Made by a program: the position numbers and the translations under genes. A DNA stretch of 64,000 nt, taken from NCBI GenBank assembly GCA_036872755.1, contig JAVHNS010000009.1, forward strand, positions 310,001-374,000, given 5' to 3'. Shown one piece after another: positions 3,213-27,773 of this stretch. The first letter of the stretch is position 1, and every line of letters begins with the position of its first letter. The notes under the pieces are model-generated. The model was not told the origin of the DNA, made no database searches, and was given only the letters and a program-made list of their open reading frames with translations. This stretch comes from Orbilia blumenaviensis. Its lineage: Eukaryota > Ascomycota > Orbiliomycetes > Orbiliales > Orbiliaceae.

Positions 3213-4337
3213 TTATCTGCCATGAAAGTTCGCAGACCCTCCGATTGAAATTGTTCCCGAGCCAGTGTTTTGGAATCCTGTTCCTTGGAAAAAAGCCTGA
3301 TGACCAGATCCATAGTTGGTGGCAGATATAGTCGGACCTTGGCCCGGTGTCAATGAGGTGTCGGCTGAAGCTGAAGGCTTCGACACCTTTGAGGCGAGAA
3401 TGATGATCATCTCCTTGGCACACGCAGCAGCCGTTGCGGCAGCATAAAAATGCCAGTCATCATTCTTATGAGTGTCCGCATAATCGGAAATGCCGCGGAT
3501 GACAAGGTAACTTAACCCAGTCGCAATGCCAGCCGCTTCCATCTCGAAGCAAAGTACATCGCCCACTGCTTTGACGATCTCATCCCTCTTTGTGGCGCTC
3601 TTTATGACCCGATCTCCTGACGCAATAAGCCCGTAGTGGATCTTAGGCCCTTTGAAGGCACGCCGCTCCCTAAGCAGAGTGTTAGCCGCACCTCCACCGC
3701 ACATCCGACATGTAGTCTCGCCGGGTTTGTGCAAGTAGTCTGCTTTATATGCGATATCAGGTCTATTTGATGGGCGGCTGTATTCGCCAAGCGTCTCGTC
3801 CTTTTCCACCATTGCGGTGATGAATTCTTCCACTCCTTTTGACTTAACCCGATGATCCGACACCATCTTCTCCGCGATATTTATTAGTAGAGGTGGAGGT
3901 GGCTGCAAGTACCCTTTAGGGGTAAACCCGTCCTCAGTATCTTTTCCCAGATCATATTGGATTATACCAGCATGATTTCCTTGGGGTTTGCTGACGACGA
4001 CATCGCCCAGGCGTACATCATTTTGGGTTCCCGGCACACCTCCTCCAATTCCGATAAGAAAGCGGTACTTGATATTTTGAAAGGTACGCTCTAAGTTCTG
4101 AGCAGCGGTAGCAGCGGCGGCTTTCCCTTGGGAGCCCGGGAGGTATGTGAGGACGACATTCAGGCCGCCAAGCTCGCCAAGGATATATACGTTTGGATCG
4201 CCCTGCTGTTCGTCGGAATCAGCCAGAGTGGTGTGCTCATGGTCAAGCATGTAGCGAAGGGCGCTCATTTCGAATTCCATTGCGGCTATAACCGCGACGG
4301 TATAATCTTTATGGGAATATTTTTTTTCGTTCGACAT
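3213..4337 (-). CDS. PNP_UDP (purine nucleoside phosphorylase-fold) protein with C-terminal NLR-matching motif
   Basis: A single-exon gene of 374 residues. Residues ~13-325 form a PNP_UDP_1 (MTA/SAH nucleosidase and nucleoside phosphorylase) domain: start strand VAVIAAMEFEMSALRYML, the fungal-type DPNVYILGELGGLNVV, the glycine loop FLIGIGGGVPG, LGDVVVSKP, LIASGDRVIKS, the substrate-binding FEMEAAGI and the catalytic RGISDYAD followed by AAATAAACAKE. This fold cleaves or phosphorolyses N-glycosidic bonds of nucleosides; the substrate here is unknown. In fungi the domain is common as the N-terminal effector of NACHT/NB-ARC receptors, but here it stands alone. A low-complexity linker (~326-348) leads to a final 26-residue Gly/Asn/Ser-rich tail with FQGTGFQNTGSG, which matches the N-terminus of the divergent NACHT-WD40 neighbour. 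I infer an amyloid-type signalling tail. The ATG start fixes the full N-terminal strand of the fold. Confidence 0.88.
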   Translation of the reverse strand: MSNEKKYSHKDYTVAVIAAMEFEMSALRYMLDHEHTTLADSDEQQGDPNVYILGELGGLNVVLTYLPGSQGKAAAATAAQNLERTFQNIKYRFLIGIGGGVPGTQNDVRLGDVVVSKPQGNHAGIIQYDLGKDTEDGFTPKGYLQPPPPLLINIAEKMVSDHRVKSKGVEEFITAMVEKDETLGEYSRPSNRPDIAYKADYLHKPGETTCRMCGGGAANTLLRERRAFKGPKIHYGLIASGDRVIKSATKRDEIVKAVGDVLCFEMEAAGIATGLSYLVIRGISDYADTHKNDDWHFYAAATAAACAKEMIIILASKVSKPSASADTSLTPGQGPTISATNYGSGHQAFFQGTGFQNTGSGTISIGGSANFHGR

Positions 4338-4722
4338 GGCGGATACCGTGGATCGATCAAGGGTAGTTAGATTCCTAAAAACGTGGGATGAAGCTCTGAG
4401 TGTTCTCGTTGGGTAAAGGTGAACACTTGCTGTAAACCTGGGTAAGACTTCGACTTCGTAGAATTCAACAGCCAGGTATTACTGGGATGAAACAAAATTA
4501 TAATTTATTCTCCGGGCTTGGATAATCGTAAGGATCCATACTTAATATTTTCAGCCTTGTAGGCGCTCAAGTCAAATGCTGATTGGTCAGTATTTATATA
4601 CCCTAGGCCCGCGCAGTCAAACTGAAGCGGGGTAGGATATATATTTATGATGCATACAGTAAACATGATATTACACCCACGATATCCACACTATTAAAAT
4701 TCAGCTCCTTCTAACCAGCACC
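4338..4722. promoter_or_regulatory. Shared divergent promoter of the PNP_UDP / NACHT-WD40 pair
   Basis: Only 385 bases separate the two divergent start codons, so the two genes probably share control elements. Visible elements are an inverted CCAAT box (ATTGG, 4583-4587), a TATA-like tatttatata at 4592-4601 and a second AT-rich atatatattta at about 4636-4646. Both TATA-like elements lie on the receptor side. Assignment of individual elements is a guess; the shared position is what the sequence shows. Confidence 0.5.
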
Positions 4723-7700
4723 ATGACGGATTTTCATTCCGAGCACCGTACAAGTGAGCAGCAATATTACAGGTCTGACCTTCGCGGGCAGGGATTGCAG
4801 AACACCGGTACTGGATCAATCCAAGTGTCAGGAGATGTGAATATCAACAGCGATCCCGATTACGACCAGAATGCTCACTGCCTGCGGGACCTAAAAACAA
4901 CCGATCCCCGTGATGACAAGAGGCGCATCGAGAGTAAAAAGGGTGGCCTACTAGCCGACTTGTATGTCTGGGTTCGCGATAACCCCGAGTTCAAGCAGTG
5001 GCGCGATGGCACGGATAGCCGACTACTCTGGATCAAAGGTGATCCTGGCAAAGGCAAGACCATGCTCATCTGTGGTCTTATCAACGATCTGAGAGATATG
5101 AAGACCAGTATCGACAATCTGGGAAATCCGAATACTGAAGCAAATGCCAAAAACCTCATATACTTCTTTTGCGAAGCTACCGACCCGCGCATTAACAGTG
5201 CCACGGCCGTCATACGCGGACTAATGTTCATGCTAGTAGAGCAGCAGTCCAAACTTCTCCCACACTTACGCAAGAAGTATGATAATACTGGCGATAAGTT
5301 GTTTCAGGACGCTAATGCCTGGACGGCTTTGTCAACAATCTTAATCGATATGCTGCAGGACCCTGGATTAAATTTCACGTACTTGGTTGTTGATGCACTC
5401 GACGAATGCAGGACAGATCTATCAAGTCTCCTTGACTTTATCGTTTTAACGTCGTCTAAAAGTCTACGTGTCAAGTGGATCGTCTCTAGCCGCAACTGGC
5501 CAACCATTCAGAAGTACCTTGACAAAGCCATGGGGAAAGTCAAGTTGTGTCTTGAGCTAAACGAAGAATCTATTTCCATGGCCGTCGAAAAATTTATCGA
5601 GATCAAAGTAGATGATCTGGCAGAGCAAAATGAGTATGACGAAGCCTGCAAAGAAGAGGTACAGGACTACTTGTCATCAAACGCGGAGAACACCTTCCTT
5701 TGGGTAGCATTGGTCTGCGAAGAACTCCGTAATATCGATCCATGGGACGTTCAAGAGAAGTTGAAGAATTTTCCCCCGAAGCTTGATGAACTCTACGCCT
5801 GGATGATGAACCAAATCCACAACTCAAACTATGCTGAACGTTGCAGAGGTATATTAGCCACTGTTGCTGTTGCACGTCGGCCTATTGTGTTGAAAGAACT
5901 ACTGTTTTTTATTGATATTAAAGGGATTCGCCCCAATAATTACAATGGCCTAAGGACTATCATAAGGCAATGTGGCTCTTTTCTGAATTCACCCGATGTT
6001 GAGGGCGGCGCACATGGTGGAGAAACCATTTCGTTCGTTCACCAGTCGGCGAAAGACTATGTTATGAAAAACGCAGCGACGATATTTCCCGACAATGAAA
6101 ATGCGATACATCAACAGATAGTGCTACGGTCAATCGATACTATGCACAAAGTACTACGAAGAGATATATATAATTTACAGCACCCTGGTCGCTCAATTGA
6201 TGAGATTGAAGCACCGCATCCGGACCCACTGGATCCAGTCCGTTACGCCTGTACCTACTGGCTTGATCACCTTTGCGCGATCGAAAGCGGTTGGGATGAA
6301 GAAATCCTGCGCGATGGTGGCAAGGTCGACGGGTTCCTAAGAAAACACTTTCTTCACTGGCTTGAGGCTTCGAGCCTTATCAAAGACGAATTTGATATCG
6401 TAATTAAGCTCGGAGGCTTACTTTGGGTTAGTTACTGCCCAGCAAAATAGAATGTTCGCACATTAACTCAGATTGGCCTAGAAACTTTCACTCGGATCCG
6501 TACTTTTTCAACTATCATCTGATGCACATAGATTTATCCTGTCCCACCAATATACTATCAAATCTACCCCTCTACAAGTTTATTCGTCGGCCCTTTTATT
6601 CAGCCCTACTAACAGCTTGATACGAACGATTTTTAGGAGCGAAGAACCGGAGTGGGTTACTGGGAAACAGGTTATGGGAACAGGCTGGGGAGCCTATGTG
6701 CAAACATTTGGCTATTTTACTGACAAAAAGAGCGAATTTGACACCAGTGTGGTTGCTTTTTCGAACGACAGCACGCGGATAGCGGCATTGTCGAGAGGAA
6801 CCATCAAGGTCTGGGATCTCAATCGGGGTGCTTGCATACAAACACTAGAATATCGTAAAAATTATGGATTTGAGACTAACGATACTCGGGTCAAGTGTAT
6901 TGCATTCTCAAATAATAACCATGATTTAAGAATTTTAACTGAGCTGGATGATAAAACATTTCAGATTCGAAATTTCACAAACAGTGGGGCACGCTCGCAT
7001 ATGCATGACACCATGCGCGTGCCAGGAGAGACTTCAGGTTGCTTTCAAATTCCCTTCAGCTATGGGGAGCGCACCCGAGTAACTTTTTCGCATGATGGTA
7101 CACAGCTAGCGTTGTGGCGGGATGGGACTGTCAGGATTTGGGGCGTCGATGATCTCCTTGTTGGAATTAGTTCGCGGGGAATCGAGATGAGGTACCAGCA
7201 TACCAGGTATCCTGAGCGCTTTAGTCCGCACGTTATCGTGGTTTTCTCGAAGGATAACAACCGAATAGCAGTTAGCATGGAACACAGAATTATAATTTGG
7301 GATACCACCGACGGCATCTGTGAAAAAGTGCTTCCTCTCTACAATAACGTCAACTCGATTCCATCGATTGCATCGATTGCATTCTCAACTGATAACAAAC
7401 AGCTAGCATTCGCACTCGGCGGCAAATTCGAAATCTGGGATATCGGTACTATTCACAGCACTTACAAACTTAGAAAAGTGATCACGCGCTCCAGGGAGTT
7501 CATCGACCCGCACTGGAATAGCGCACTCGCTTTTTCGAATGATGGCAGTCGAATAGCATTGGGGTCGCGGCACGATATTCAAGTCTGGGATATTGAGAGC
7601 GGTGCCCATCTACAGACCCTTTCCGGCCACGATGGCTCGATTAGATTGATCCGTTTTTCTGATGATGGTAGATGGATGGTCTCGATATCTTTGGGTCCAG

Positions 7701-8752
7701 TCGCAGAAATTAAGATCTGGGATAATAACAATATTTATACGCCAGTGGTCGACCCTGTCGATTCTCATGACTATAGAGTCTGTGGGATCGTAATCTCAGT
7801 TGATGGTGTACGGATCGCATCAACAAGTGCTGATGGAATAGTTAAACTCTGGGATAGTAGTGGCGCCTGCACACAAACGCTCAACGCTCAATGTCTCCGC
7901 CGTTACGGAGAGGCTAACGTCGCGGCCTTCTCGAATGACGGTAAAAGGATTGCAACGAACACGGATAATAAAATCAATGTTTGGGATATTGATGACCGTG
8001 GTATCTGCGGAAAAGCACCCGTCGAACTTTCCAGGGGCCCTTTTCGCATTAAGTCGATAGCATTTTCGCATAATGATAAACTAATAGCATCATCGACGGG
8101 GAACCGAATCGATATCTGGAACGCCAGCGGTTCCCACATAAAAACAATGATATACAAGTCCGCTATAGCTAAGAAAATCTGGATGCCTGAAAGAACCGCG
8201 ATCGCATTTTCAAATAACAGTAAACTAATCGCATTAGCATCGGATAATGGCCGCAGGGATGGCTTCATGGAGTTTAACATCTTGAACACTAAGAGCATTC
8301 CCGATACGTCCGTCGATGAGTATCGAGGCTGTTTCCCTGAAGTAACTGGAGTAACTATAACAATTCAAGACGACGGCAGCCTTAAAGTCCCCACACTCGA
8401 AAAAATCATGGTCGATAACGCAGATTTAAAAGTGCGTGTTTTAGGTGCTGGGGGTGTTGTAGTTCTGCAGATCACCGATGCCGACCTGTACCAAGTATAT
8501 TTTGCCTCCGACTCCGACTCTGAATTCGGATCCGACGTTATGATATCGATGGATATGCTGGAAGTCCAACATGACGGCTATGGGATAAGTGCTGATAGGG
8601 CTTGGGTCACTTGGAACGGTCAAAATGTTCTTCGATTGCCGTTGGAGTACCAGCCAGAGCATTTCGACATTGTGAATAATACTCTCGCCATCGGCTGCTC
8701 CTCAGGTCGGGTCTTGATATTTACTTTCTCATCTGAGTCTCCTCTGAAGTAG
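4723..8752 (+). CDS. NACHT-WD40 STAND receptor (fungal NLR) with N-terminal amyloid-like motif
   Basis: Exons 4723-6426 and 6482-8752 join in phase 0 to give 1324 residues. The 55-nt intron has donor gttagt, a ttaac branch and a cctag acceptor. Splicing removes the apparent stop at 6448 and restores the conserved linker (DAHRFIL, then PLQVYSSALLFSPTNSLIRTIF) found between NACHT and WD40 parts of fungal NLRs. Residues 20-41 hold a Gly/Gln/Asn motif (RGQGLQNTGTGSI) like the tail of the neighbouring PNP_UDP protein. The NACHT ATPase has Walker A GDPGKGKT (106-113) and Walker B YLVVDALDEC (~217-226), so both nucleotide-binding motifs are intact. From ~655 to the end lie about ten divergent WD40 repeats (IKVWD, VRIWG, IIIWD, FEIWD, IQVWD, IKIWD, VKLWD, INVWD, IDIWN), likely a ligand-sensing beta-propeller. 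The family acts in non-self recognition and programmed cell death in the cytosol. The WD repeats are too divergent for recent repeat homogenisation. Confidence 0.92.
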
Positions 8753-14472: not shown

Positions 14473-16728
14473 CTACTCATCCCGCTTCACTCCGAATTTC
14501 TCCAACCACTCCCTCGCTTTATTCACGGTATCCAATTCATCAGTAGCTTCAAGGGCTACTGATTCCACCGCTTTCGTACACCATTCAATCGCCCATCCAC
14601 CTGAACCCCGTGAGTCCTCCGTCAGACTCAGCATCTCCGCCAGATGTTTCCGCTTTGAGATCGTTTCGTCAACGCAGAAGTGGAGTGGGTGGGAGGTATA
14701 CCCTCCTAACAAGCCTTCCTTCGTCACCAGAGACTTCACTAGCACTGTCGCTTCCTTGGACGGTATTACCGGCAAAGACGGCTTTCTATTGACCCGACCC
14801 GTTTTGCACATTTCGTTCAAGCACCATGGTTTTCCGCAACCCTTCAGTAATTGGGTTAGGTATCTCAACTCCGCCCGTCTAGCGAGCGCCTGATTGGTAG
14901 GATCGTATTGCGAAGAGTAGAGTGGTCCGAAACACACACTGCATAACCCTATCTGCTGGTTGTCATTCGTCCTCGTTCTTGTGCAGTTCACGTTCCTACA
15001 AATCTTTGGTAGCAATTGGGATTTACGTTGCAGGTCGTGGTTTTTAAGATGCACCTCCATGTTTTTGAGCTGCACTATCCGCTCGCAGATGTGGCAGTTT
15101 GTGGTTCTGCCGCCACAGCTAGTTTCATGTGGTGATAGGCCGGTTATCGCAGCCGTGAAGTTGGTATCTTCCTCCTGGGGCACTACAAGATGGCAGAAGC
15201 GGCAGAGGATGAGCTTGTGGGCGCAGGTGGTGGTCTTATGGGCCGCCAGCTCGGAGAGTGAGCCGGCACTGTAGTCGCAGGATGCACACCTGCGAGCTGT
15301 GTGGGCGATGTCCATGTGTTTGTTGTAGGTGTCATGTTCTGGAGTGTTCAGGCCAAAGGCCTTGCACTCGGTGCAATGCCAATGGTCTAATTCAGTACCC
15401 CGCTTGAAGACCTGCCCACAGCCATGTCGGCATAGGATGTTGTTTCGGAAACAGAAGTTTTGGTGGAGCATCATAGAACGTTTGGGAATCGAGCGTTTAC
15501 AATTGGAGCAGGTCTCGCTGTCGGCAGTAGCCGCCGCGTCCGCCATTTCCTCGTCCTCGTCGGAATCCTGGTCGGTTTTCTGGGTTATTGACAATAGAAA
15601 CTTCGTCGGATGCGGCATTGGCTTCTTGGAGTTCGAGTCGATGAGGGTTTGTTCGTATACTTGGAGTGATATCCTGACTTCCTTTGCAGTTTTTATAGAA
15701 AGGTCGTCTGGAGGGATGACGATGGGGTTCGAGCCGTCAAATCTGGCCCATGTCCACTCCTCAAGCTTTGGGTATCCCTGCATTGTGTCTGTTGAGACTA
15801 AAATATCGACGGGTTCCTCGGGTACGCTAATCGAAATTGGCTTCGAACGATCCCACGACCTCAGGTTGAACCGCACGATATTGCCATCCGAGATTGTGCC
15901 TTCTTTAGGCCCGTCAAGGTTTATCTGGCCGCCGGAACTCGACTCTGCATGCCTACGGAGCTCGCGCTGGCGTAGTGATTCCTTTGCCTGTTCTTCGTTG
16001 AGAGGTTCAATGTCGACTTCAAGGTCAGTGTCGACGATGCAGATGGCTTCGGCGCCTTCAGGCTTCACCTGGTCTATTAAGAACTTGAAATCCTTCCCGG
16101 GTTGGTGGGACAGCCGCGGAATAGCCAAAATGTTGTTTACAGCGAGGGTTGTGAAGTTCTTCTGGAGGTGGTTCTCGAGGATGGGTTTCCAGTCTTCTTC
16201 GTAGCCTGCGTCGAGCGGGCGCAGTCTGGCGAATGTACCCTTAGGGATGGCCACGGCTTCGACTTTTAGTCTGGTGCCGTTTGGCCCTTCTACTACATCA
16301 TCTTCATCTTGATCACCCTCTTGTGGTTTCGGGCTACTGCCATTACTACTACTGGTACTGGTGCCGATAGGTAGCGCGAGGCTCTCTCGTAGGAAGTTGC
16401 TAAGGACGACCTGTCCTTCATCTGCTGAGAATTCTCGAATGCCAGCATACGCAGCACGTCCGGTTACTAAACTTGTGACACGGAAGGTGAGCGGGTGGGG
16501 CAGCTGTTGCTGTTGTTGGTGCGAGTCATTGCGTCTCGGTGGTGCATCCCACGAAGCTGGGTCGTAGGCTGGCGTTTGCTGATTAGCTGCAGCCTGTGAA
16601 GCTGCCGTCGCTGCTGCTGAAAGAAGGGACTCAAGGGCGGTTTGTGGCAGCAGGAGCTTGTCGCCGGTGAGGGTCTGTGGTGGGGTGGAGGGGCTGAGGT
16701 GGAGGGCCGAGGACCAGACGAGGGCCAT
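14473..16728 (-). CDS. Ufd1-domain protein with C-terminal zinc fingers
   Basis: Intronless, 751 residues. The N-terminal third has the Ufd1 double-psi barrel pattern: LTGDKLLLPQTALESLL, LTFRVTS, VLSNFLRESLALP, then VEAVAIPKGTFARLRPLDAGYEEDWKPILENHLQKNFTTL and FLIDQVKPEGAEAICIVDTDLEVDIEPL. Ufd1 domains bind ubiquitin chains and Cdc48/p97 in protein degradation. A central acidic stretch (DQDSDEDEEMADAA) is followed by a Cys/His-rich region with at least four C2H2/TRAF-type fingers (CSNCKRSIPKRSMMLHQNFC, CRHGCGQVF, HWHCTEC, CASCDYSAGSLSELAAHKTTTC). A later segment, YLTQLLKGCGKPWCLNEMC, resembles the AZUL zinc finger of UBE3A; this last likeness is my inference. It is longer than canonical Ufd1 (~350 residues) and belongs to a separate filamentous-fungal group. 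The run of Gln at ~70 is polymorphism-prone. Confidence 0.85.
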   Translation of the reverse strand: MALVWSSALHLSPSTPPQTLTGDKLLLPQTALESLLSAAATAASQAAANQQTPAYDPASWDAPPRRNDSHQQQQQLPHPLTFRVTSLVTGRAAYAGIREFSADEGQVVLSNFLRESLALPIGTSTSSSNGSSPKPQEGDQDEDDVVEGPNGTRLKVEAVAIPKGTFARLRPLDAGYEEDWKPILENHLQKNFTTLAVNNILAIPRLSHQPGKDFKFLIDQVKPEGAEAICIVDTDLEVDIEPLNEEQAKESLRQRELRRHAESSSGGQINLDGPKEGTISDGNIVRFNLRSWDRSKPISISVPEEPVDILVSTDTMQGYPKLEEWTWARFDGSNPIVIPPDDLSIKTAKEVRISLQVYEQTLIDSNSKKPMPHPTKFLLSITQKTDQDSDEDEEMADAAATADSETCSNCKRSIPKRSMMLHQNFCFRNNILCRHGCGQVFKRGTELDHWHCTECKAFGLNTPEHDTYNKHMDIAHTARRCASCDYSAGSLSELAAHKTTTCAHKLILCRFCHLVVPQEEDTNFTAAITGLSPHETSCGGRTTNCHICERIVQLKNMEVHLKNHDLQRKSQLLPKICRNVNCTRTRTNDNQQIGLCSVCFGPLYSSQYDPTNQALARRAELRYLTQLLKGCGKPWCLNEMCKTGRVNRKPSLPVIPSKEATVLVKSLVTKEGLLGGYTSHPLHFCVDETISKRKHLAEMLSLTEDSRGSGGWAIEWCTKAVESVALEATDELDTVNKAREWLEKFGVKRDE

Positions 16729-25377: not shown

Positions 25378-27773
25378 ATGGCACCACCACAACGGGGAAG
25401 TAAGGGGTCCGGCAACTACCTGTCCTCCGAGTCCTACGACGACGATGCATCCACCCTCCGAAACTCCTCGGAGGAAGACGAAAGAAGACCGCTGGCGGCC
25501 CAGAACTTGGAGGCCATAAATAGGGGCGTGTCACAGGAATACGAAGAGGAGCATAGACGAATATTCGACGATCTCGACGACGACGAGCTTGTAGTTCACC
25601 ATACAGAAGTTAATATGGACGACCGCGACGTTTTAGATTCGGAGGATGAGAGGGAGAAGCTTTTGAGTGTGGCTAAGGACGATGCTTCGATCTTTGGGAG
25701 CTTGGGCAGGAAGAAGGGAAGGAGGGTGCTGGTTGGTAGCATGAGGGATAGCTATCGGATGGAGGAAGGGTCGGCGAAGAAAGTGAAGGTTTATGATGTC
25801 GACAGGGAGACTGTATGGTTCTTTCCCCCCCCCTTCCCTTTGCTCTCGTACTGAAAGAACTTCTCTTTTCTTCCGTCTTTTCGTTTTTTTCTTGATGTTT
25901 TTTCGCTGTGCTATTAAGAGGGGCTTTCCATGCTGATGTCTCGATGTGCTGCTGACAGGCTCGACGACCAACTGTTATTAAGCTGGCGGTGTTTACGTTA
26001 GCTCTGACGGCTTTCCTGGTTGCCCTGATCGGAGGGGCCATGCAATATTCCTCGTCGAGTTCCGGATTTTCGAAATCGATCTTGAGTAACGGAACGCACG
26101 ATTACCACCCCACTACTATCCTTATCTCCCTCGACGGGTTCCGTGCCGACTTCCTAAAACGAGGGTTCTCGCCCACTCTCCAGAGGTTTATAAAGGAGGG
26201 TGTAGCTCCTGCGTACATGTACCCGAGCTTCCCTAGCGTTACCTTTCCGAACCATTGGACTATCGTTACCGGCCTTTATCCGGAATCGCATGGCATTGTT
26301 GGGAACTCCTTCTGGGACCCCGAGATTGAGAAGGAGTTCTTTTACACGGATCCGGATAGGTCGCTGCAGCCACACTGGTGGGGCGGTGAGCCGCTATGGT
26401 CGACAGCTGAGAGGCAAGGCGTTAAGGCCGCTGTACACATGTGGCCTGGTTCGGAGATGAAACCTGCACCTTATGAGATCTCCTACCTCGACCGCTTCAA
26501 CAAGTCGGAACCTCTCACCATGAAGGTTGATCGCATCATGGAATGCCTTGATAAGCCTATTGACATGCGGCCTCAGTTTATTGCTTCGTACTTCCACCAT
26601 GTCGATACCGCGGGCCATAAGTACGGGCCCAACTCGACGGAAGTTAACAACAGCATTAAGCTGATTGATGGCATGCTTGCTCATCTTCTATCTGATATCG
26701 AAGAAAGGAACTTGACTAAGGTTGTCAACATCGTCGTTGTATCCGACCATGGCATGGCTACTACCAGCAATGACCGGCTTATCTTCCTCGACGATATCAT
26801 TGACATGAAGCAGATCGAGTTCAGCGACGGTTGGCCGCTTTATGGTCTTCGTCCCAAGTCCGGGGTCAACCTAACGGCGCTGCATGAGACTCTAGCCAAC
26901 GAAGCCGCTAAGAGTCCTAACTGGGATGTGTTCCTCAGGGATGTCGACATGCCTGAACGGTGGCACTTCTCGAAGAGCCCTAGAATCGCGCCATTGTGGA
27001 TCGTTCCCAAAACCGGATGGGCGATTGTTACTAGGCCAGAACACGATCCTTCCAAGACAAATAAGCCGTACAGCCCGCGCGGACTCCACGGATATGATAA
27101 CATGCACCCGCTTATGCGCTCCATCTTCGTCGCTCGCGGACCAGCATTCCCACACCCTCCAGGATCTAGAGTCGAGCCCTTCGGAAACTGGGAGGTGTAT
27201 TCCATCATCTGCCACAGTTTAGGATTGCAGCAGTCACCGATCGGAAACAATGGTACCATGTCATGGGGTACGCCGAACGGGGGGTTCAAATTTACGGCGC
27301 TAACCGATGACGAAGACGTTAACGACTTCCCAGCTGGGGCTAGCGGGACAACTGCGGTGCCACCATCAGCATCAGGGTCGGGAGCATCTTCTATCCCGTC
27401 GGACAGTTTTAGTCCGGTGATAACATCGTCGACATCCTTGGGTGATAATGAAAAGGCAATTTTGAGCCATATCTCGGAGGCTAAGTCTGTTCAGGCGGAT
27501 GAGCCGGTGACCGAGACTGCGGTGACTTCCACACACCCCAGACCTACTGTCGATGAACCGGCTACGGCACCGTCGTCGGTTGTGGCACCCACTGATCCGG
27601 CGGTGAGTAGACCGGCGGTTGTGGATGATTCAACGGGGAATAAAACAGAGGCGGAGAAGCAGCAGGAGGCGGAGAAGCATGGGTTTAAGAGTTGGCTTGA
27701 GTATATGAAGAATAAAGCGAAGTCAATTACGCAGTCGATATCGGATTGGTGGAAGAATTTCTGGGGGTCTTAG
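25378..27773 (+). CDS. Type II membrane nucleotide pyrophosphatase/phosphodiesterase (NPP family)
   Basis: Exons 25378-25812 and 25959-27773 (phase 0; 146-nt intron) give 749 residues. The first ~145 residues are an acidic cytosolic tail, followed by one transmembrane anchor (~153-172, TLALTAFLVALIGGA) and a lumenal or extracellular alkaline-phosphatase-fold domain. Diagnostic motifs are ILISLDGFRADFL (metal Asp), PSVTFPNHWT with nucleophile Thr ~240, YFHHVDTAGHKYGP (metal ligands), VVSDHGMA and GLHGYDN. Enzymes of this family hydrolyse nucleoside triphosphates, dinucleotides or phosphodiesters at two metal ions, and yeast Npp1/Npp2 act in phosphate scavenging. The last ~170 residues are an added Ser/Thr/Pro-rich stalk ending in a basic, Trp-rich amphipathic helix (ITQSISDWWKNFW), unusual for the family and possibly membrane-associating (inference). 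Several N-glycosylation sequons are visible (NGT, NKS, NST, NLT). Confidence 0.92.

Follow-up and report, generated by a model that had tools for sequence, protein, structure and literature searches.

Two divergent genes in a 64,000-nucleotide stretch of the Orbilia blumenaviensis genome (hereafter the window; the source assembly is 42.5 Mb) encode a PNP_UDP enzyme and a NACHT-WD40 receptor, and very probably constitute an NLR/effector pair of the PUASM type. PUASM, the Pnp_Udp-associated amyloid signalling motif, was described in a 2022 survey of fungal NLRs, with the pattern FxGxGxQxxGxGxF (PMC9815663). In the text of that survey, the motif is tied to PNP_UDP effectors only, its receptors are NACHT or NACHT-WD40 proteins, and its instances come from Pezizomycotina, with the genes often adjacent. 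The reference pair, PUASM/NLR32 (EQB50682.1 / EQB50683.1 of Colletotrichum gloeosporioides; Wojciechowski et al. 2022, PMC9815663), has its motif at the C-terminus of a PNP_UDP protein and at the N-terminus of a neighbouring NACHT(-WD40) protein, with the core GxGxQxxGxG. The same sequence-level features are found in the Orbilia pair, also from Pezizomycotina but, unlike the pair as published, from Orbiliomycetes. Motif, effector domain, receptor architecture, motif positions and adjacency all correspond to published PUASM, and amyloid signalling is the best reading of these genes. An earlier note on this DNA had proposed just such an amyloid-signalling pair, and the proposal holds, although the kind of system is already in the literature. 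What we add are the Orbiliaceae members, a split between cis and trans forms within one genome, and a possibly orphaned second receptor. Orbilia, Arthrobotrys, Drechslerella and Dactylellina are genera unnamed in the main text of the survey (PMC9815663), and PUASM 1 and 2 are named among fungal motif families in a 2025 paper (PMC12261475). The literature collection that we searched returned no published report of the O. blumenaviensis PNP_UDP/NACHT-WD40 pair, and no paper on the species.

The effector gene (window positions 3213..4337, minus strand) is a single ORF of 374 aa that matches PNP_UDP_1 in a Pfam search (E 4.1e-16) and aligns with 33 chosen homologues at 49–57% identity. The AlphaFold model (mean pLDDT 75.5; block means of 55–66 at residues 241–270) and its fold matches indicate a PNP/nucleosidase fold at about residues 12–318 (3384..4304, minus strand). 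The top matches among solved structures are MTA/SAH nucleosidases, and the matches include Glu12Gln and Asp197Asn mutant entries. We take the catalytic residues of MTA/SAH nucleosidases to be those numbered Glu12, Glu174 and Asp197. The fold of this type and equivalents of the catalytic Glu/Glu/Asp are present in the enzyme, and its residues E23, M266, E267, R281 and D285, of which E23, E267 and D285 are the nucleosidase residues, are invariant in alignments of 30 and 34 chosen proteins (29 and 33 homologues, hand-picked among 120 listed). It is by this predicted fold and these residues only that the earlier suggestion of a nucleoside-cleaving enzyme is backed; the MTA/SAH-nucleosidase catalytic residues are kept, and ATP would be the substrate by analogy only. 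Beyond the fold lies a linker (residues 319–349; 3291..3383, minus strand), mostly of low confidence, with pLDDT <50 at residues 324–347. It leads into the C-terminal PUASM motif (residues 350–371; 3225..3290, minus strand), located by ORF and motif comparison and reading FQGTGFQNTGSGTISIGGSANF, in which AlphaFold predicts two short strands (354–357 and 363–366) at a block mean pLDDT of 66–68. P0001, the enzyme's entry in the database, begins at Met20 and so loses the first strand of the fold; we prefer the 374-aa start because it fits the homologues better.

The receptor gene lies head to head with the effector gene. The two divergent start codons are separated by 385 bp (4338..4722), possibly a shared promoter. 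Exon 1 (4723..6426, plus strand; 568 codons), defined by its ORF and the deposited protein, encodes an N-terminal tail, the PUASM motif and the NACHT domain. Motif comparison places the PUASM motif at residues 20–41 (4780..4845, plus strand; LRGQGLQNTGTGSIQVSGDVNI), and Pfam the NPHP3_N/NACHT core at residues 83–257 (4969..5493, plus strand). The sequences GDPGKGKT at 106 and LVVDALDEC at 221 are the Walker A and Walker B motifs. A 55-nt GT...AG intron (6427..6481, plus strand) joins the NACHT and WD40 frames, and exon 2 (6482..8752, plus strand), assigned by ORF, Pfam and splicing, carries the WD40 repeats and the stop codon. Pfam matches for the receptor are NPHP3_N (E 1.1e-33), NACHT (E 2.8e-8) and WD40 (E 2.6e-25). 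The spliced product, 1324 aa without an internal stop, is identical over its full length to TWF730_010862 of O. blumenaviensis. A broken receptor gene is thereby ruled out, the gap being an intron and the product equal to the deposited protein. ORFs, Pfam and splicing bear out the coordinates, strands and residue ranges that the earlier note had assigned to the divergent pair.

Two other genes in the window deserve mention. A 751-aa ORF (14473–16728, minus strand) combines UFD1 N-terminal subdomains with an XAF1/TRAFD1-type zinc finger and an AZUL domain. A Type I phosphodiesterase/nucleotide pyrophosphatase (25989–27773, plus strand; E 3.3e-103) shares the window with the nucleosidase-like gene.

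Enzyme residues 350–371 and receptor residues 20–41 align without gaps, with a BLOSUM62 score of 61 and, on our recount as in the earlier note, 10 identities in 22 positions. None of 400 composition-preserving shuffles attains the real score. Between the two 70-residue ends, the best 22-residue segment scores 62, and the shuffles average 13.7 with a maximum of 30. A profile search, which the same note had put forward for the terminal segments, gave matches on both sides when run with effector tails. For this we used 119 listed enzyme homologues (of 7,754 matches) and 119 listed receptor homologues (of 3,303 matches), the window's own proteins being excluded from each set. The effector profile was built from the tails of the 90 listed enzyme homologues that have a loose motif core near the end; the core is absent from the last 60 residues in 29 of the 119. 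Searched against the 1669 stop-to-stop frames of the window, the profile found both motifs, each at E 1.8e-6, and no other frame at E <= 1.

The same profile matches eight of the 119 listed receptor homologues, all from Orbiliaceae, the family to which Arthrobotrys, Drechslerella and Orbilia belong. These are P0122 (Arthrobotrys megalospora), P0166 (Drechslerella dactyloides), P0238 (Orbilia brochopaga), P0131 and P0133 (O. oligospora), P0168 and P0200 (O. ellipsospora), and P0231, a second receptor of O. blumenaviensis; the next-best receptor in the set reaches E 0.54. When a 41-residue region was used to look for more receptor-side motifs, only P0122 itself and P0231 were returned, from four candidates. 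A PUASM-like stretch, GKGLQHNGSG, occurs inside P0237, an NLR of Amylocarpus encephaloides, at residues 185–194, and scores worse than E 1 against the effector profile. Within the O. blumenaviensis genome, the pattern GxGxQNTGxG has three matches, two of which are the window's own. Around the third (C12:39072, in locus L041) we saw by eye no PNP- or NACHT-like ORF among the listed ORFs of >=140 aa; a WD40-like ORF is present at a distance of about 4.7 kb, and in this locus the effector profile scores no better than E 4.7. Given the weak score and the lack of such an ORF, we take this match to be chance. A 25-residue peptide query of the genome returned only the two PUASM receptors; it missed the known effector motif of the window, so its sensitivity is limited.

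Pairs of this kind probably occur elsewhere too. Two further species have a receptor and an effector with consecutive locus tags, TWF281_003178/003179 in one and TWF694_002859/002860 in the other, from which we infer that the genes are adjacent. The earlier note had looked to recurrent adjacent pairs with co-varying motifs; the consecutive tags speak for the first part, and co-variation is not shown by the three to four pairs at hand. For the three adjacent pairs (window, TWF281, TWF694), 2 of 6 arrangements attain the score of the true pairing, and for four pairs, with O. oligospora added (its enzyme and receptor records come from different strains), 5 of 24 do, the pairs in both comparisons being few. 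The window's enzyme motif scores 71 against the O. oligospora receptor and 61 against its own, and own-pair motifs are not clearly closer than swapped ones, among pairs too few to settle the point.

Co-variation is expected under strict pairwise seeding. That it is not seen would suit a simpler role, in which the motif serves simply as a tag through which receptor and enzyme dimerise or dock, giving a finite assembly without amyloid templating; the glycine-rich stretch is also short, and the modest model confidence leaves its fold open. We nevertheless regard such a tag as improbable. Both PUASM peptides of one Colletotrichum pair assemble into fibrils that are positive for ThT, and in Podospora the motif from the effector side behaves as a prion (PMC9815663). 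In the same survey, co-aggregation of the two sides is deferred to a later study, so that templating from receptor to effector is presumed for the PUASM family as a whole.

If the motif acts as an amyloid seed, as we favour, the pair might work as follows. Ligand would bind the WD40 end of the receptor, upon which the NACHT module would oligomerise, as STAND proteins are expected to. The N-terminal PUASM peptides, thus clustered, could then nucleate a small cross-beta seed, akin to the published Colletotrichum fibrils, and the seed would template the PUASM at the C-terminus of the enzyme, which is encoded separately. The enzyme, once gathered, would split an adenine nucleoside or nucleotide at its N-glycosidic bond. 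The substrate, if bacterial immune PNP proteins are a guide, is probably ATP, which immune ATP nucleosidases convert to adenine and ribose-5'-triphosphate (PMC11249213, PMC10197012, PMC12881547). The hyphal compartment would die or stop growing as a result.

This scheme shares its logic with HET-S/NWD2 (HRAM), HELLP (PP) and sigma systems, in which a receptor N-terminus and an effector C-terminus share an amyloid motif and the genes are often adjacent, as in the Orbilia pair. The motif sequences differ, and a search of the enzyme and receptor exon 1 for the Pfam HET-s (HRAM), PP and sigma motifs, with filters that can drop short motifs, gave none at E <= 10. Effectors in those systems are mostly pore-forming or lipase-type, unlike the PNP_UDP enzyme here. 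One HRAM variant, NLR12, is linked to PNP_UDP in the survey (PMC9815663). Detocs and related bacterial PNP effectors likewise place a PNP-superfamily effector in an immune-type system, though Detocs, as described, is a three-gene defensive two-component system. Two PADLOC profiles match the enzyme, PN-superfamily Effector (E 1.5e-11) and PDC-M60C (E 2.6e-11), and suggest that it is remotely related to defence effectors of bacteria; the first match spans residues 236–311.

Closer to the Orbilia pair are PNP-NACHT(-WD40) fusion NLRs, which have the same enzyme superfamily and NACHT lineage but carry the enzyme in cis, whereas in the Orbilia pair the link is via the motif. One such fusion, P0164, shares 49% identity with the receptor across 98% of the queried region. 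Searching the genome with the enzyme and the receptor exon returned at least 139 PNP matches (97 merged loci) and at least 69 receptor matches. These lower bounds also indicate a large PNP expansion in the genome, of about 97 merged loci. All 139 PNP matches, so merged, were compared with 68 of the 69 receptor matches, C4:1064983-1065513 being excluded because it is another fragment of a gene in the set. A PNP locus lies upstream on the same strand in 31 of the 68 receptor matches listed, at gaps of -38 to 1741 bp; this is, as judged from sequence, the layout of a fusion. A divergent PNP locus within 1 kb accompanies only two of the 68, the window's receptor and C9:1420496, and 35 of the 68 have neither arrangement. 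In a third divergent case, at 4.8 kb, the PNP locus is also upstream of another receptor match.

PUASM was found in just two receptors of the genome, and these are the same two with a divergent PNP. When the effector profile was run on the nine closest receptor paralogues (L032–L040), only C9:1420496 matched (E 2.6e-11; next best, E 1.1); receptors beyond these were checked by the less sensitive 25-residue peptide query only. Because the motif was found only in receptors with a divergent PNP, and 31 receptor matches have, by their layout, PNP in cis, the simplest reading, drawn from two trans cases in one genome, is that PUASM may replace the covalent link between enzyme and receptor. We also considered the motif as a linker remnant of PNP-NACHT fusions and rejected this idea: P0164 falls short of E 1 with the effector profile, and no frame in the cis loci L034, L035 and L037 reaches it.

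The second PUASM receptor, TWF730_011148 (P0231, C9:1420496), carries an intact motif that comes close to the consensus of the family. Beside it lies a PNP gene (L032:3289-4218, minus strand; C9 ~1,418,800-1,419,700) that is frameshifted near the conserved region of the catalytic Asp, and no PUASM was detected in the surrounding frames besides the receptor's own. Adjacency, then, does not always imply a working pair. TWF730_011148 may be an orphan receptor or a user of the window's enzyme, the latter suggested by the frameshift in its own PNP neighbour and the motif undetected there. The two lie 1.1 Mb apart on one contig, and non-adjacent pairs are suspected for PUASM, among others, in the survey (PMC9815663). 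The motif of TWF730_011148 scores 49 against the window's enzyme motif, as compared with 61 for the window's own receptor, which weighs somewhat against sharing. That one trans enzyme serves both receptors thus seems to us possible but unlikely.

A frameshifted effector gene at the genome's other PUASM locus raises the question of whether the window's pair is itself a leftover of an ancestral functional pair, with a divergent motif that no longer signals. Indeed, the window's motifs score lowest of the copies scored, in both partners (24.4 bits each, as frames, versus 27.6–40.3 for the eight other receptors). Departing from the PUASM/NLR32 pattern, the final core position is I instead of F in both motifs, and the first is L instead of F in the receptor motif. 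A stricter expression, which permits F, I, V, L or W at the last position, fits 71 of the 119 effector tails; the residue there is F in 40 of them, I and L in 10 each, V in 8 and W in 3, so I is a common variant. L at the first core position occurs in one of the 71. Against loss of function, both frames are open (374 and 1324 aa), the catalytic residues are retained, and the five G and Q positions invariant across 16 aligned motifs are all present in both partners. We therefore think it quite improbable that the pair is a relic. Chance or low-complexity convergence, conceivable for two segments in which G, N, T and S abound, is rejected by the shuffles and by the profile from other records, which selects just these two of the window's frames, and we hold it to be extremely improbable.

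Our results add Orbiliomycetes pairs to PUASM. Because the effector is an enzyme, the death mechanism would be accessible to direct assay, and a genome in which one receptor lineage has its enzyme in cis in some members and, together with the shared motif, in trans in others is a natural experiment on the role of the motif. If the window's enzyme is indeed shared with TWF730_011148, then O. blumenaviensis would have a small receptor network converging on a single nucleosidase under amyloid control, which would kill by depleting adenine nucleotides, beside 31 receptors that have PNP in cis.
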